Source of the DNA: Planctomycetaceae bacterium
GTDB lineage: Bacteria > Planctomycetota > Planctomycetia > Planctomycetales > Planctomycetaceae
Reading direction: 5' to 3'
Length of the DNA: 59,570 nucleotides
NCBI GenBank assembly: GCA_015485495.1
Contig: WFTL01000170.1
Location: 1-59,570 of the forward strand
The notes below the pieces were generated by a model. It saw only the letters and a list, made by a program, of their open reading frames with translations. It had not been told where the DNA came from and did no database searches. Made by a program: the position numbers and the translations under genes. Below, in pieces: positions 43,607 through 49,424 of the stretch. Numbering within the stretch: position 1 is the stretch's first letter; each line of letters begins with the position of its first letter.

Positions 43607-44629
43607 TCAGGCAGAGGGAGAAACAGGATCCGGCAGCGTGTCGAGAATCTGATTCAGGATATCGTCGGGACGCACGTTTTCGGCCTGACCTTCGAAGTTG
43701 AGAATGATGCGGTGACGCAGAACCGGCCGGGCCGCCGCGTTCAGGTCTTCGCAGCATACGTGGAAACGGCCGTCCAGAATGGCGCGAATCCGGGCTGCCA
43801 GAATGAGTGCCTGCAGTCCGCGGGGACTGGATCCGTACTGAACGTAACGGCGGGTGATTTCCGGAGCATTGGGGCGGTCCGGGTGAGTGGCCAGCACCAG
43901 AGCAATGGCCTGTCGCCGGATGTCGTCGGCAATCGGCACCCGACGGGACAACGCCGTCATCTCCAGAATCCGGCGGCCGTTCAGAACCGGATCGGCCCGG
44001 ACTTCCGTGGATTCGGTGGTGCGGTCGAGGATGGTTTCCAGTTCCTGAGCCGAAGGATACTCAACCAGCAGTTTGCAGAAGAAGCGGTCGAGCTGGGCTT
44101 CCGGCAGCGGGTAGGTGCCTTCCATTTCCAGGGGATTCTGTGTGGCCATGACGAAAAACGGCTGCGGCAGCAGGTGCGTGGTGCCTCCGGTGGTCACAGA
44201 ATGTTCCTGCATGGCTTCCAGCAGAGCGGACTGGGTTTTCGGAGTGGCCCGATTGATTTCGTCTGCCAGCACGATGCTGGCGAACAGCGGTCCTTTCTGA
44301 AAGCGAAACACCTTGCCGCCGCTGCCGTCATCCACCGCCACCGTGGCACCGATGAGATCGGCCGGCATCAGGTCCGGAGTGAACTGGATGCGGCGGAACG
44401 ACAGGTCCAGAGCATCGGACAGCGTGCGCACCAGCAGCGTTTTGCCCAGCCCGGGTACGCCTTCCAGAAGCACGTGTCCGCCGGCGGTCAGAGCGATCAG
44501 GGTGTCGTCGAGAATGGATTCCTGTCCAACGATGACGCGGGCGATTTCGGATCGCAGGCGGGAAAAATCGGACCGAAACTCCGCCAGCCGACCTGCCAGT
44601 GCGTCCGCATCCGCATCCGTATCCGCCAT
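43607..44629 (-). CDS. MoxR-family AAA+ ATPase (cluster 2)
   Basis: A 340-residue MoxR ATPase. Walker A is in LLEGVPGLGKTLLVRTL and Walker B in VLADEINRATPKTQSALLEAMQE, with the conserved MATQNPLEMEGTYPLPEAQLDRF. A short Asp/Ala repeat (DADADA) follows the start Met. ATG at 44629, divergent from the nuclease gene at 44752 with a 122-bp spacer that should contain promoters for both. It is the first gene of the 44629-38076 cluster. Confidence 0.95.
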   Translation of the reverse strand: MADTDADADALAGRLAEFRSDFSRLRSEIARVIVGQESILDDTLIALTAGGHVLLEGVPGLGKTLLVRTLSDALDLSFRRIQFTPDLMPADLIGATVAVDDGSGGKVFRFQKGPLFASIVLADEINRATPKTQSALLEAMQEHSVTTGGTTHLLPQPFFVMATQNPLEMEGTYPLPEAQLDRFFCKLLVEYPSAQELETILDRTTESTEVRADPVLNGRRILEMTALSRRVPIADDIRRQAIALVLATHPDRPNAPEITRRYVQYGSSPRGLQALILAARIRAILDGRFHVCCEDLNAAARPVLRHRIILNFEGQAENVRPDDILNQILDTLPDPVSPSA

Positions 44630-44751
44630 GTCCCTGCTGTCCGATCTTCTGATGATTGCATTGCCTGGAACACCAGGCGATTCTTGAAGGCCCGGCAGTG
44701 TTTGTCCAGTGCATGGGAGGAGGCGATCTGTCGGGGCAGGAGAACTCGTCT

Positions 44752-45609
44752 GTGATCAGACCGTCTGCAGACAGTGCGTCGGCCGTTCGAATGCGGCCGT
44801 GTTCCGCGATCATCGTCGTGTCCGCGGTGGTGGTCTGCCTGATGTTCATGCCGCCGGCGATTCGGGCCGATGACCGACCGATCAATGCGGCTCAGGCGGA
44901 ATTTCTGCGACGCTTCGACCGGATTTCCGCGGCCGGCTATGTTCCGACCGGGCGGCCGGGCGACACAGGTGTCGGCTACACTCTGGAAACTCTGCTGGGC
45001 GTGCCGGAAAACAACGATCCCGGAGGGGATTTTCTGGGGATTGAAGTGAAGGCCTGGCGGATGACGGACGGCCGCAACGATCGCCAGCGGCCCATGAATC
45101 TGTTTCTCAGAGAGCCGGTCTGGATCGACGGGCTGACGGCCGCGGAACGGGTTCGGCGGCGCGGGTACATCGATGAACAGGGACGGGCGGCCTGGTACCA
45201 GACGGTGTCCTGCCGCGAAAACACTCATGGGCTGCGTCTGAGCTGCGATGACCGGGCCGGCTGTCTGCTGCTGCTGGATGACGCCGATGCAGTCGGATTC
45301 TGGACGTACGACGTGCTGGCCCGGCGCCTGGCGGAAAAACACCGCTGCGCGGTTTTCGTCGGCGCCCGTTCACGCGGCCGCGGGCGCGGGGAAGCCTTCC
45401 ATTACCGGACGGTCGACTGGTGTGAGAAGCCGTCGGTCACGCGGCTGCTGGACCTTGTCGATCAGGGTGACATCGTTGTGGAACTGCGGATGCACGCTGT
45501 GTCGGACACGCGCGTGCGCAATCACGGAACAGCATTTCGTGTTCGCCGCCATCGGCTGACCGACCTGTACGAATCGGTTGTCCGCCTGCGGCCTGCGGCC
45601 GGTCAGTAG
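44752..45609 (+). CDS. MvaI/BcnI-family nuclease-like protein with apparent signal peptide
   Basis: 285 residues from the GTG at 44752, which has AGGAG 9 nt upstream. A hydrophobic stretch (about residues 18-34) ending PPAIRADD looks like a signal peptide. The body matches the MvaI/BcnI restriction-endonuclease family: GVGYTLETLLGVPENN, then GGDFLGIEVKAW, giving the catalytic D93-x4-E98-x-K100, and HGTAFRV near the C-terminus. No methyltransferase is nearby. Starting at ATG 44848 instead would give about 253 aa without the leader, a typical length for cytoplasmic family members. Its stop overlaps the convergent gene by 7 bp. Confidence 0.75.
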   Translation: MIRPSADSASAVRMRPCSAIIVVSAVVVCLMFMPPAIRADDRPINAAQAEFLRRFDRISAAGYVPTGRPGDTGVGYTLETLLGVPENNDPGGDFLGIEVKAWRMTDGRNDRQRPMNLFLREPVWIDGLTAAERVRRRGYIDEQGRAAWYQTVSCRENTHGLRLSCDDRAGCLLLLDDADAVGFWTYDVLARRLAEKHRCAVFVGARSRGRGRGEAFHYRTVDWCEKPSVTRLLDLVDQGDIVVELRMHAVSDTRVRNHGTAFRVRRHRLTDLYESVVRLRPAAGQ

Positions 45610-47354
45610 GTGCAGTCGATGCCCAGCCGAAACGTGTGCTGGTAGAAGCTGTCGCGGCGCACGTTGAGCGTGGGAAAGATGCCGGCCCGCGGATTGGACT
45701 GCCAGACGATGGACGACTGCGGTTCGGCCACTTCGCCGATCCACAGGAACGTGTATCCGGCCTGGAAGGTCGCGTTTTCCAGAACAGGCATGTCTCGAAG
45801 TACGGGGACGTGACCGAACAGCGGAATGCGGGCCGTGAACGACTGTTCGAACAGCGGCGACACGTGCGTTGTATTCCGGGCGTCGGTGAAGGCGTTTTGT
45901 GTGAGCTGACCGTTCGATGTGGATGTGTCGAACAGAGCCCGCAGAATCTGGTTGCCGGTGACCGGATCGATGGCGAATTCGTCTCCGTCGGAATCGTTGT
46001 CCTGGGTGGCCGCGAAACTGCCGATGTTGTCACCGGCCAGGCGAACGCGTTCCCGGTTGATCATGGCTCCCACGCGGGTTGATCCGACAAGCGAAATGCC
46101 GGCCCGTTTTCCCAGGTCGTAACTCACACCAAGCTCCGGACCGGCCAGATCGCTCTGCACCAGACTGTTGACGAAGGCGCGAATCAGCAGTTCGTTGGAC
46201 AGATTGAACGATTCGTAGTCCCCGCCGCCGCCGGCTTCTTCGATATCGTCCACGAAAAAGTCTCCATCGTTGTCGACGCGATCGACCGCCTGTGGATCAT
46301 CAGAGATCGAATACACCAGTCCCGAATCGATGCCGCGGAAGAAGAACCCTTCGTTGACCTGCATGTAGCGGCCGCCGATCAGGCCTCGGAACGTGATTCC
46401 ATGGCGTTCCTCAATCGGTGCGGTTTCCAGTTGTCCCCCGGCCGCCCACGTCTGGACACTCTGCCGAATCGAAAAATCGATGTCGAACCGCTGATAGGTT
46501 CCTCTTCCCAGCAATGTCGGGTCATCCAGCGGCAGACTGAGCGGCGAGAGGAGGGTGCGGTCGAAAATGTCCGTGGCGTTGCCGCGGATCGCGAAATCCA
46601 GAGCATCCAGGTCCAGAGCGTCGAAGGAAGTACCGTCCATCAGCAGCAGTCCCAGAGCGATTTCCAGGTCGGACGTGTCCCGATGATTGTTGAACACCGG
46701 TCCGGGATTGCCGATTCCGCCGGTCAGGCCCAGGACCAGGGAATCCACTTCATCGCCGCGAAACCGTTCCCGGTCTTCCCGGGCACTGAACTGTTCGGAC
46801 TTTTCGCCGTTCCAGAATCCGAAAAAGGATGCCGTCCAGCCTTCCCGGCTGTCGATGCTGGCGGTGACTTTCAGTCCGTCCGTCGTCACCTGCGGAATCT
46901 GCGACATCAGCGGCGGGAAGAACATCCGGTAGGTGATGACCTGCGGTGATACAAACTGGCCCATTTCGTCCGTGGCCAGAGTCGGGGCGTTCGGGTCTCC
47001 CACCTGGTCACTGGTTCGCCGTGTCCGGCTGCTCAGCCATTCCACCTGAACGCGGTAGCGGTAAGGACGACCGCGCGGTTCGAAATGACTGACGGTGTCC
47101 TGGAACCACAGACCCTGCTGATTGACGTGCTGCTGGCTGGCGTATTCGTAGGGTGACAGATAGGGGTGCGGCTGAAACGAAGACGGCATGCCAAAATACG
47201 AAACACCGGCGGCTCCGGATCCCGGAGCTCCGGCAGAAACGGCCGGACTGCCTGCTGAGGGGACACCGCCGAGTCCCTGCGCTGCTGCACTGGCCGACAT
47301 GGTCATCGCCAGCAGTAACGGCAACATGGTTTTCATACGGTGCCTGATCCGCAT
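45603..47354 (-). CDS. Putative outer-membrane beta-barrel protein (BBP7-like)
   Basis: 583 residues from the ATG at 47354. Signal peptide core MLPLLLAMTMSASAAAQ, then an Ala/Gly/Ser-rich stretch and a long series of alternating amphipathic strands ending GIDCTY, as expected of a barrel. GYTFLWIGEVAEPQSSIVW near the C-terminus resembles planctomycete BBP7-type barrels. Two loops are Asp-rich (VDNDGDFFVDD and DNDSDGDEFAID) and look like calcium-binding motifs. The family call is by resemblance only. Confidence 0.65.
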   Translation of the reverse strand: MRIRHRMKTMLPLLLAMTMSASAAAQGLGGVPSAGSPAVSAGAPGSGAAGVSYFGMPSSFQPHPYLSPYEYASQQHVNQQGLWFQDTVSHFEPRGRPYRYRVQVEWLSSRTRRTSDQVGDPNAPTLATDEMGQFVSPQVITYRMFFPPLMSQIPQVTTDGLKVTASIDSREGWTASFFGFWNGEKSEQFSAREDRERFRGDEVDSLVLGLTGGIGNPGPVFNNHRDTSDLEIALGLLLMDGTSFDALDLDALDFAIRGNATDIFDRTLLSPLSLPLDDPTLLGRGTYQRFDIDFSIRQSVQTWAAGGQLETAPIEERHGITFRGLIGGRYMQVNEGFFFRGIDSGLVYSISDDPQAVDRVDNDGDFFVDDIEEAGGGGDYESFNLSNELLIRAFVNSLVQSDLAGPELGVSYDLGKRAGISLVGSTRVGAMINRERVRLAGDNIGSFAATQDNDSDGDEFAIDPVTGNQILRALFDTSTSNGQLTQNAFTDARNTTHVSPLFEQSFTARIPLFGHVPVLRDMPVLENATFQAGYTFLWIGEVAEPQSSIVWQSNPRAGIFPTLNVRRDSFYQHTFRLGIDCTY

Positions 47355-47554
47355 CGATCTACCCTTTACCAGCCAACAGTTTTTCTGGCTTGTTCCGCCT
47401 GTCCCGGCCGGCCGTATGGAACGGCAGTCCGAGCGCATTGAGACGGTCTTGAGGCTAGTATCGGTCAGGCAATTTGCGAAACTGTAGGGATTGTTCAGGT
47501 TGTACGGCTTTTTCCGGTGCGGCAGGATTCGCCGAACTGCGCCGGGCAGCGGCG

Positions 47555-49093
47555 TCAGAACACCGGTCCCGGCTGCCAGGGACAGAATTCTTCATCCCCG
47601 ATTCCCTGCCGTTCGCTGAGCGTCGGTTCGCCGCTCGCTGTGGCGATGATCTTCTCGAAGACCCGCTGTCCCACCTGTTCCACCGATTCGCCTTCCAGAA
47701 TCGTCCCGGCGTTCAGATCCATGTCGTCCGACATGCGTTCATACAGCGGAGTGTTCGTGGCCACCTTGATGGTGGGGGACGGCTTGCATCCGAAACAACT
47801 GCCTCGTCCGGTCGTGAACACCACCACCTGAGCACCGCCCGCCACTTTCCCTGTCACGGATGCCGGGTCGAATCCCGGGCTGTCCATGATCACGAACCCC
47901 GATTCCGTGACCGGTTCAGCGTACTGGTACACGGCTTTCAGCGGAGTGGTTCCGCCTTTGGCGATGGCTCCCAGCGATTTTTCGTAGATGGTCGTCAGGC
48001 CTCCCTGCTTGTTGCCGACCGATGGATTGTTGTCGATCGAAACACCGTGGCGAGCCGCATAGTCTTCCCACCAGCGGATTCGTTCCAGCAGGCGGCGCCC
48101 CACCTCCTCGCTGACCGCTCGTCGGGTCAGCAGATGTTCGGCACCGTACATTTCCGGCGTTTCCGACAGAATGGCCGTTGCCCCCTGAGCCACCAGAAGA
48201 TCAGCGGCGATTCCCACCGCCGGATTGGCCGTGATGCCGCTGTTGCCGTCGCTGCCGCCGCATTCCAGAGCCACCTTCAGTTCGGAAACCGGAATCGGTT
48301 CCCGAACCACGCGGCCGGCTTCCGGAAGAAGATCCCGCAGCACGCCCGCCGCCCGATCGACGGTTTTGCGAACCCCCCCCGTTTCCTGGATATTGATGAC
48401 CAGGGGAGGTGCTTCCGGAGAGTTTTCCGAACCTCCCAGTTGAACCAGACCGTGCTGTTCCTGCAGGTAGCCGGCCTGAGCGGTTTCGCATCCCAGTCCC
48501 AGAATGAGGCAGGCAGCGACGTTGGGGTGTCGGGCGAATCCGGCCAGAGTGCGGTTCAGACGCTGATGATCGTCGTCTCCGAATGCCATCGCACAACCGG
48601 ATTTGTGGACGAGTGGAACGATTCCGTCGATGGTTGGGAAATCGCCCAGGTCGGTCTGAGCGAGGCGCTGAGCCACGTAGCGGGCGGTGGTGGCCGAACA
48701 GTTGACCGTGCTGATCAGAGCGATGTAGTTGCGGGTAGCTGCCCGGCCGTCCTTTCGGCGAATTCCCTGGAACGTGCGGGGAGCCGCTGCGGGCGGTTCG
48801 TGCAGTTCCGTGCCAAATTCGTAGTCCTGACCGGCTTTCGCCGCCCGCACATTGTGGACATGGACCCAGTCGCCCGGTTCGATGGAGCCGGAGGCATACC
48901 CGATCGTCTGCCCGAATTTGATGATCGGATCGCCGGATTCCAGGCGGGTCAGCGCCACCTTGTGTCCGGCCGCGATGTCTTCTTTCAGGACAACCTGACG
49001 GCTGCCGATGGAAATCGGCGTCCCGGCCGGTTGGCTGACCGTGAGAACGGCCGTGTTGTCGGAAACATGCAGACGCAGGGCAGATGAATTCAA
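47555..49093 (-). CDS. uxaA: Altronate dehydratase (UxaA-type)
   Basis: 512 residues in the UxaA/galactarate dehydratase family, which dehydrates D-altronate to 2-keto-3-deoxygluconate in hexuronate catabolism. An N-terminal SAF-like domain is followed by the catalytic domain with NYIALISTVNCSATT, HKSGCAMAFGDD, GLGCETAQAGYL, ALECGGSDGNSGITANPA and FTTGRGSCFGCKPSPTIKVA. A TTG at 49093 with AGGAAA about 9 nt upstream gives a normal N-terminus (NSSALRLHV); the frame extends to an ATG at 49216. No other hexuronate genes are adjacent. Confidence 0.88.
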   Translation of the reverse strand: MNSSALRLHVSDNTAVLTVSQPAGTPISIGSRQVVLKEDIAAGHKVALTRLESGDPIIKFGQTIGYASGSIEPGDWVHVHNVRAAKAGQDYEFGTELHEPPAAAPRTFQGIRRKDGRAATRNYIALISTVNCSATTARYVAQRLAQTDLGDFPTIDGIVPLVHKSGCAMAFGDDDHQRLNRTLAGFARHPNVAACLILGLGCETAQAGYLQEQHGLVQLGGSENSPEAPPLVINIQETGGVRKTVDRAAGVLRDLLPEAGRVVREPIPVSELKVALECGGSDGNSGITANPAVGIAADLLVAQGATAILSETPEMYGAEHLLTRRAVSEEVGRRLLERIRWWEDYAARHGVSIDNNPSVGNKQGGLTTIYEKSLGAIAKGGTTPLKAVYQYAEPVTESGFVIMDSPGFDPASVTGKVAGGAQVVVFTTGRGSCFGCKPSPTIKVATNTPLYERMSDDMDLNAGTILEGESVEQVGQRVFEKIIATASGEPTLSERQGIGDEEFCPWQPGPVF

Positions 49094-49424
49094 TGGAATG
49101 GCTTTCCTGCTGTTGTTCGGGGCGATGGCGTCCGGCAACACGGAAAAGGAGGCCGGCGACTGCCGGAAGTGTGCGGAGCGGCTCCTGGCGAATCCAGCGT
49201 CTGTCAGCGGAATCATGCGTATTTTACGATTCCACCGGGCAGGACGGGCCCGGATCTTCGCGGTTGTCGGTGATGTCTGTTCGGCCCGGTTTCCGAAGTA
49301 CCGGGTTGGTGGCGGGCGAGGAGGATCGCCATTGACCGAAAAACGGGTTTCGCGTTATGAGGATCTGTGGCCGATTCGGAGATCCGGCCGTCCGGGAACG
49401 CCGATCAGGGATGAAGGCATCAGC
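49094..49424. other. Divergent intergenic region between uxaA and the ketosynthase pair
   Basis: 331 bp with no convincing gene. Frames from both neighbours stay open into it but show no family resemblance. A candidate plus-strand promoter lies at 49332-49361. The leftward uxaA promoter is not recognisable. Confidence 0.5.
49332..49361 (+). promoter_or_regulatory. Possible sigma-70-type promoter for the ketosynthase operon
   Basis: TTGACC (49332-49337), an 18-bp spacer and TATGAG (49356-49361); five of six and four of six matches to the consensus boxes. It would give a leader of about 57 nt before the ATG at 49425. Confidence 0.35.

Follow-up and report, generated by a model that had tools for sequence, protein, structure and literature searches.

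Restriction enzymes are usually regarded as proteins of the cytoplasm, kept from harming their host by methylation, and those of the MvaI/BcnI kind normally act inside the bacterial cell. The locus analysed here raises the question of where, and against what, a nuclease of this family would act when it begins with an apparent signal peptide and has no methyltransferase gene beside it. The window, by which we mean the whole 59,570-nucleotide stretch of DNA analysed, is contig C170 of a planctomycete genome (G000; 4.67 Mb, 180 contigs, 98% complete) in which the nuclease gene is the single PF15515 gene. The features on which the analysis turns are as follows.

43607..44629, minus strand: gene for a MoxR-type AAA ATPase, divergent from the nuclease gene (AAA_3, 205.8 bits)
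44738..44742, plus strand: Shine-Dalgarno sequence AGGAG, 9 nt upstream of GTG 44752, read from the sequence
44752..45609, plus strand: gene for a predicted exported MvaI/BcnI-family nuclease of 285 aa, GTG start, with a clade-conserved leader
44752..44868, plus strand: Sec-type leader, residues 1-39, predicted from hydropathy and flank charge; predicted cleavage PPAIRA/DD, site placed by eye
44809..44841, plus strand: hydrophobic core IIVVSAVVVCL, from hydropathy, with PPAIRA/DD next
44908..45570, plus strand: MvaI_BcnI nuclease domain, PF15515 positions 2-227 of 227, from Pfam and the AlphaFold2 model
45028..45051, plus strand: catalytic motif DFLGIEVK (D93, E98, K100), the D-x4-E-x-K motif, from alignment
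45517..45540, plus strand: RNHGTAFR motif, residues 256-263, RNHG[TS][AC]FR in the clade
45603..47438, minus strand: gene for a 611-aa protein, convergent with the nuclease gene, with a signal-peptide-like start and no Pfam match
47555..49216, minus strand: galactarate/altronate dehydratase-family gene (PF20629, PF04295)

The protein read from the GTG begins MIRPSADSASAVRMRPCSAIIVVSAVVVCLMFMPPAIRADD. The original prediction, made from the letters of the window, had placed an open reading frame from GTG 44752 to 45609 behind a good Shine-Dalgarno sequence, and this was borne out by the AGGAG at 44738-44742. The divergent gene was confirmed as MoxR by its AAA_3 match (206 bits at 43607-44629, minus strand), across a gap of 122 bp, and the GVGYTLETLL, D-x4-E-x-K (DFLGIEVK) and (RN)HGTAFR motifs are all present in the nuclease translation. 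The MoxR gene, syntenic in G001 also, and the 611-aa gene are neighbours that we do not propose as parts of the nuclease system. The convergent 611-aa gene, followed by the dehydratase gene, lies beside the nuclease in G000, G001, G103, G308 and G352, and these shared neighbours show that in those genomes the nuclease has been passed on vertically at one constant position.

We used profile, sequence and structure comparisons to assign the protein to a family. It matches PF15515 end to end (positions 2-227 of 227; 130 bits, where the cut-off is 25; E-value 1.6e-37). Pfam offers nothing else at E up to 0.001, and nothing meaningful came from NCBIfam. A phmmer search of the PDB returned R.MvaI (3.7e-14) and R.BcnI (3.6e-5) and no others at E up to 1, and in PADLOC the best model, that of a restriction enzyme of 405 aa, was matched over positions 166-397. 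The AlphaFold2 model of the nuclease (pLDDT 91.8, from 31 aligned sequences) aligns with MvaI (2oaa_B) at a VIA Z of 25.4 and an rmsd of 2.7 over 230 residues, and with BcnI (2odi) at Z 23.0 and an rmsd of 2.9 over 220; the next fold family is MutH, at Z 8.4. Two motifs, D-x4-E-x-K, which we take to be an active-site motif of the family, and RNHG[TS][AC]FR, are both intact in all 16 intact members of the clade described below. The description of D-x4-E-x-K as an active-site motif of the MvaI/BcnI family comes in part from PMC4081073. Judged from its sequence and predicted structure, the protein is a full-length member of the MvaI/BcnI family with an MvaI-type fold and intact PD-(D/E)xK-type catalytic residues. 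A MutH-like repair role was considered and rejected, given the Z of 8.4 against 25.4 for MvaI and a leader that makes repair implausible. A secreted toxin aimed at competitors was also set aside, as PF15515 is the only domain found.

Relatives were gathered with PF15515 and protein searches, which found them in 5 of 59 and 17 of 397 genomes (own genome included), and with the profile over 170 genomes of the window's family, of which 19 gave a match, those of G022 and G275 being of another type. An alignment used as query against the genome contigs returned 39 loci; the window protein alone, used in the same way, returned zero. The phage collection gave no match to the nuclease, and the plasmid matches comprised 10 records, each below 60% identity. 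Maximum-likelihood analysis of 36 nuclease domains splits off the 16 leader-bearing rows by one branch with support of 100/99. Because these rows form one clade, export, if the leader is genuine, is an ancestral trait of the clade. Going by record titles, its members belong to Planctomycetaceae, Pirellulaceae and a single genome labelled Verrucomicrobiales; for G571 the placement goes no further than the family of G444. Several handles hide redundancy or damage: G446 and G420 are apparently one genome, with identical contig coordinates, L103/L105, L092/L093 and L119/L120 are near-duplicates, and L094, L108 and L110 among the leaderless loci are short, broken nuclease frames. G022, G275, G362 and G680 are not counted as exported carriers. 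The G022 protein (L004/L041, contig C52) is a longer, different PF15515 protein (469-aa frame); its gene and a PF00145 methyltransferase are about 1.1 kb apart, the usual restriction-modification arrangement, inside the window's own family.

We assessed whether the leader has the properties of a signal peptide from its conservation, its hydropathy (the top Kyte-Doolittle mean of any 11-residue stretch in the first 45 residues) and its flanking charge. The window protein reaches 3.39 over 11 residues, and the flank N-terminal of the core has a charge of +3, counting the amino terminus as 1, against +1 in the 25 residues beyond the core. Third-position GC is alike in the leader (0.78 over 40 codons) and the nuclease part (0.73). 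A hydrophobic N-terminal segment is present in 18 of the 18 clade proteins read, with maxima of 1.53-3.39. Among 23 relatives outside the clade the maximum is 0.32-1.53 and mostly comes from the internal GYTLETLL motif, the only exceptions being a Gluconobacter pair (L092, L093) and L102. The two ranges, from a table that leaves aside L096, L099, L106, L107 and L110-L113, touch once, where L080 (1.53, start uncertain) equals the two Gluconobacter proteins. In all 16 intact clade members the flank before the core carries more positive charge than the 25 residues C-terminal of it, which by the positive-inside rule would put the nuclease outside. In five Pirellulaceae members the leader ends, by eye, in a lipobox-like cysteine (VAGC, TTGC, CVGC, LLGC and VSGC). 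A scripted lipobox scan flags three of these five proteins; VAGC, TTGC and VSGC match the usual lipobox pattern, CVGC and LLGC less so, each having another cysteine at -3 or -4, and PF08139 scores L135 at 10.6 bits, under its cut-off of 20.

The positive n-region, hydrophobic core, plausible cleavage site and conservation across the clade are the features expected of a Sec-exported protein, and export is strongly inferred from them; we regard it as very probable that the nuclease leaves the cytoplasm. The exported-nuclease reading put forward in the original prediction is therefore supported, in that all 17 other clade proteins read keep the leader. That prediction had also named translation from ATG 44848, which would remove the leader, as the start that would speak for an ordinary restriction enzyme; the leader stands, as ATG 44848 lacks a Shine-Dalgarno sequence, and none of the alternative ATGs at 44791, 44842 and 44848 is preceded in the sequence by one comparable to the AGGAG before the GTG. 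The same observations bear on the reading in which the protein is an ordinary cytoplasmic Type II enzyme, its leader being either mis-annotated or a membrane anchor that leaves the nuclease facing the cytoplasm. There is a precedent for the latter in SNIPE, a membrane-held nuclease that faces the cytoplasm according to PMC13190303. However, the charge bias found in 16 of 16 proteins runs contrary to what PMC13190303 reports for SNIPE, an N-out topology, and the leader shared by all 18 clade proteins read, the five lipobox-like endings and the lack of Shine-Dalgarno sequences before the leaderless ATGs of the window gene also argue against a cytoplasmic location.

The clade also carries the marks of selection on the enzyme and of repeated loss. 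In the two pairs in which dS is unsaturated in the nuclease part (the other three pairs being saturated), dN/dS is 0.10 and 0.05 in the nuclease part against 0.30 and 0.40 in the N-terminal part. These values indicate that the nuclease is under purifying selection, with a leader that changes its letters and stays hydrophobic. Copies are broken or fragmentary in five relatives (G001, G002, G032, G175 and G261; G175, counted as a broken carrier, retains a 34-position fragment with an E-value of 5.5e-4), and the nuclease of two more, G385 and G352, has a stop or frame break. Thus, the nuclease is dispensable.

We next considered the absence of a methylase, the second half of the original prediction. 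For METHYLTRANSFERASES near by, two models detected no C5 or amino methyltransferase at any of the 16 clade loci within flanks of up to 4.5 kb, several of which are shortened by contig ends. The adjacent methyltransferase of a classical Type II system is thus found at 0 of 16 clade loci, and at 21 of 22 leaderless cellular loci. The latter neighbours comprise eight of C5 type, 12 of amino type and one broken PF00145 gene about 760 bp off (L099); the sole leaderless locus lacking one, L107, lies at a contig end. The amino-type model was trained on seven of the 12 amino-type neighbours, and of the eight such neighbours that were compared with Pfam, six exceeded the cut-off of a Pfam methyltransferase model. 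The count leaves aside L089, L111 and L113, and seven viral relatives stand outside the 22. On the gene content of these flanks, the leaderless cellular kin are ordinary restriction-modification pairs and the leader clade is without such pairing. In the viral relatives (L114-L120) the MvaI/BcnI-family nuclease is likewise leaderless, and the two models detected no methyltransferase in the available flanks. A further observation concerns an Omnitrophica locus, L097:7463-9367 (minus strand), where a single frame near a leaderless MvaI/BcnI-family nuclease joins a LexA DNA-binding domain, an S24 peptidase and an amino methyltransferase; this fused frame could place restriction under the control of DNA damage.

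We extended the search to the whole genome, using PF00145 and PF01555, and found matches only on contigs C109 and C43. A METHYLTRANSFERASE in trans is encoded at G000:C109:6178-7332, the only PF00145 gene of the window's genome, between a Na+/H+ antiporter gene and a tRNA-dihydrouridine-synthase-like frame named from its sequence. Thus, the claim of a solitary nuclease with no methylase holds locally, within 4.5 kb, and fails genome-wide, which makes the suggestion that none is needed doubtful. The C109 protein is 45% identical to E. coli Dcm over 361 aa and shares its recognition signature, [RK]GNGFG...RTLSARY[YH]KDG.E...PRRL; its best PDB matches are 3lx6 (288 bits) and 3me5 (287), both named only 'cytosine-specific methyltransferase', against 182 for M.HhaI. 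The other candidate for a hidden cognate, an amino-methyltransferase of the sort that neighbours many leaderless relatives, is unlikely: the one PF01555 gene of the genome, on C43, scores 17.8 bits with the model built from those neighbours, against 142-693 at the model's own loci. This C43 gene (L044:5027-7105, minus strand) encodes a 692-aa N4/N6 DNA methyltransferase whose C-terminal part appears by eye to be GIY-YIG-like.

The Dcm-like gene accompanies the nuclease well beyond this genome. It is present in 15 of 16 intact nuclease carriers, including the carrier labelled Verrucomicrobiales, and the signature was found in all 11 carrier methyltransferases read (of 15), G308 differing by one letter. 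In the window's family the gene occurs in 15 of 17 carriers, broken ones included, against 28 of 153 other genomes (18%; p 1e-8), or, counted by genus, in 7 of 7 against 8 of 51 (p 2e-5). The two carriers without it are G002 and G365, the latter intact, 89% complete and with no PF00145 match. In a second family the counts are 5 of 5 carriers against 6 of 236 others (2.5%; p 7e-8), or 11 of 241 overall. These Fisher tests ignore phylogeny, which is their chief weakness. The 43 of 170 genomes scored as Dcm-like comprise 39 with a match of at least 320 bits, a threshold chosen after viewing the list and under which the non-carriers G009 and G134 (170-173 bits) fall, and four with split genes (G226, G349, G439 and G441).

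The presence of the Dcm-like gene and its association with the nuclease in two families suggest that the nuclease may have a trans partner. The association could also reflect shared ancestry or lifestyle, the exported nuclease acting alone. Carriers cluster in certain genera, and non-carriers of those genera (such as G195, G266, G343 and G387) often retain the same methyltransferase; wherever the positions of both genes are listed, they are on different contigs or separated by more than 100 kb, and Pfam detected no restriction gene among ten neighbours of five trans-methyltransferase loci. Ancestry alone does not readily explain why the pattern is repeated in a second family, one that seldom has the methyltransferase, or recurs in the genome labelled Verrucomicrobiales. 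Nor does it readily explain why the methyltransferases of carriers come from different branches: in the five Pirellulaceae carriers they fall on two (100/100 and 100/99), whereas the nucleases fall on one (96/93), which indicates that the trans partner there is one that has been exchanged, yet is always present. We therefore lean slightly towards a functional tie between the exported nuclease and the methyltransferase, and consider an association through ancestry or lifestyle quite possible, if somewhat short of an even chance.

The methyltransferase also supplies a case for a cytoplasmic enzyme, of which it would be the cognate: it is present in trans in nearly all intact carriers, and its predicted site agrees with the CCWGG of MvaI-type enzymes. 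Set against the leader, the charge bias and the lipobox-like endings, this still leaves the cytoplasmic reading very improbable.

The agreement of sites raises the matter of what the nuclease recognizes. CCWGG is read by EcoRII and UbaLAI, methylated by Dcm and cut as CC^WGG by MvaI. UbaLAI is a Type IIE enzyme in which a B3-like effector domain precedes an MvaI-like domain. Inside the clade, a sister group (L081, L083, L085 and L086) carries some 155 additional residues, placed after the leader and ahead of the nuclease, to which Pfam has no match. In the AlphaFold2 model of L086 (pLDDT 84), the one member of the group modelled, the extra domain has a B3-like fold, matching the UbaLAI B3 domain at Z 11.4, the EcoRII effector domain at 11.1, BfiI at 10.3, LlaJI.R1 at 10.2 and plant B3 domains at 8.0 or less. 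BfiI and LlaJI.R1 read sites other than CCWGG, and because their domains match nearly as well, the extra domain is not enough to assign the site, although the indications together lean towards CCWGG. This near tie lowered our estimate both for CCWGG and for the explanation as a whole.

We also counted CCWGG in genome samples of 188-400 kb. The site is under-represented in three intact carriers, with observed/expected ratios of 0.72 in G103 (L191-L210), 0.83 in G571 (L251-L270) and 0.85 in G308 (L231-L250). In the window's own genome the ratio is 1.02 (rank 26 of 32), that is, not under-represented, and in two genomes with a broken nuclease it is 0.98 (G001) and 0.99 (G002, in which no methyltransferase was found). 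CTTGG, the deamination product of CCWGG, is not raised in G103 (0.75). The counts lean in the expected direction, but with no avoidance in the genome of the window and no rise of CTTGG in G103 we draw nothing from them, and a CCWGG-type specificity of the nuclease appears about as probable as another one.

The results so far would suit a further reading, in which a restriction fold has been reused for nutrition or the processing of extracellular DNA, with no role in defence and no need of methylation. The leader and the lipoprotein-like forms, the absence of an adjacent methyltransferase, the stable vertical locus next to metabolic and envelope-type genes and the patchy losses are all in keeping with such a scavenging nuclease. 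However, an enzyme specific for a short site would be an odd choice for degradation, the reading leaves the association with the Dcm-like methyltransferase without a reason, and the sister group retains a B3-like DNA-reading fold. We consider scavenging unlikely, though less so than a cytoplasmic enzyme.

The explanation that we favour, by a modest degree, is that the protein is a Type II endonuclease from the MvaI branch, relocated from the cytoplasm, and restricts foreign DNA at the envelope; restriction at the envelope as its role, taken by itself, we hold to be an evenly balanced proposition. The suggestion of the original prediction that the enzyme could act on incoming or environmental DNA, possibly in the periplasm, agrees with this favoured reading. 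A fuller scheme, which we offer tentatively and rate below its parts and as less likely than not, is a compartmentalized restriction-modification system in which an exported or lipid-tethered site-specific nuclease and a solitary Dcm-like methyltransferase in trans form an envelope gate against unmarked DNA that spares the DNA of kin. A single origin is envisaged for it, in which the leader was gained and the neighbouring methyltransferase lost.

In the favoured explanation, Sec would take the nuclease across the inner membrane. The enzyme would then be free in the periplasm in Planctomycetaceae and in the genome labelled Verrucomicrobiales, and tethered as a lipoprotein in Pirellulaceae. Outside the cytoplasm it would fold as a monomer and cut double-stranded DNA at a short site, likeliest CCWGG or one much like it. 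It would attack DNA that is passing through the envelope or lodged there, such as phage genomes, DNA taken up from outside and DNA from lysed neighbours. The chromosome would be protected mainly by the inner membrane, with the Dcm-like mark as a probable second layer that guards against the cytoplasmic precursor and marks the DNA of kin. MvaI is not known to be blocked by Dcm-type methylation, and protection in trans may for this reason not work as drawn. The nuclease would cut one strand and then the other, as MvaI and BcnI, according to PMC4081073, cut one strand at a time.

If the exported clade is what it seems, place would be a second way of handling the danger of restriction. A small soluble enzyme would then allow restriction at the envelope to be tested directly. 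Solitary Dcm-like methyltransferases, long a puzzle as to their role, would gain a function, and DNA uptake might be subject to a kin filter.

Comparison with known systems places the nuclease between familiar enzymes and an unfamiliar location. R.MvaI (CC^WGG) and R.BcnI (CC^SGG) are monomeric Type IIP enzymes of PF15515. The window nuclease shares their fold, domain length, catalytic D-x4-E-x-K and end-to-end profile match, is 25-26% identical to both over the structural alignments, and differs from them in its Sec-type leader and in flanks without a methyltransferase. With the Type IIE enzymes UbaLAI and EcoRII, the sister proteins have in common a domain before the nuclease, B3-like in L086, and unlike them begin with a signal-peptide-like segment; the window nuclease itself has no B3-like domain and so lacks the Type IIE layout of UbaLAI. 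The trans methyltransferase resembles E. coli Dcm in sequence and signature, but the hosts belong to different phyla, its specificity is predicted only, and Pfam detected no Vsr-type gene among the ten neighbours of the five loci scanned.

For the location, our literature searches on exported, secreted or periplasmic restriction enzymes and on planctomycetes, whose scope did not extend to older and subscription papers, returned no report of such an enzyme among the matches listed. Among those matches the nearest published idea is SNIPE, which in PMC13190303 is described as a membrane-bound nuclease with GIY-YIG and DUF4041 domains that cuts phage DNA during injection. In both systems (for SNIPE, according to PMC13190303) self and non-self would be told apart by their position at the envelope. 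However, the window nuclease has PF15515 only, with neither GIY-YIG nor DUF4041, and thus a restriction-enzyme fold that is predicted to face outward. The comparison suggests that what is new here is not the family, which is already known, but the predicted redirection of an MvaI-type restriction enzyme to the envelope.
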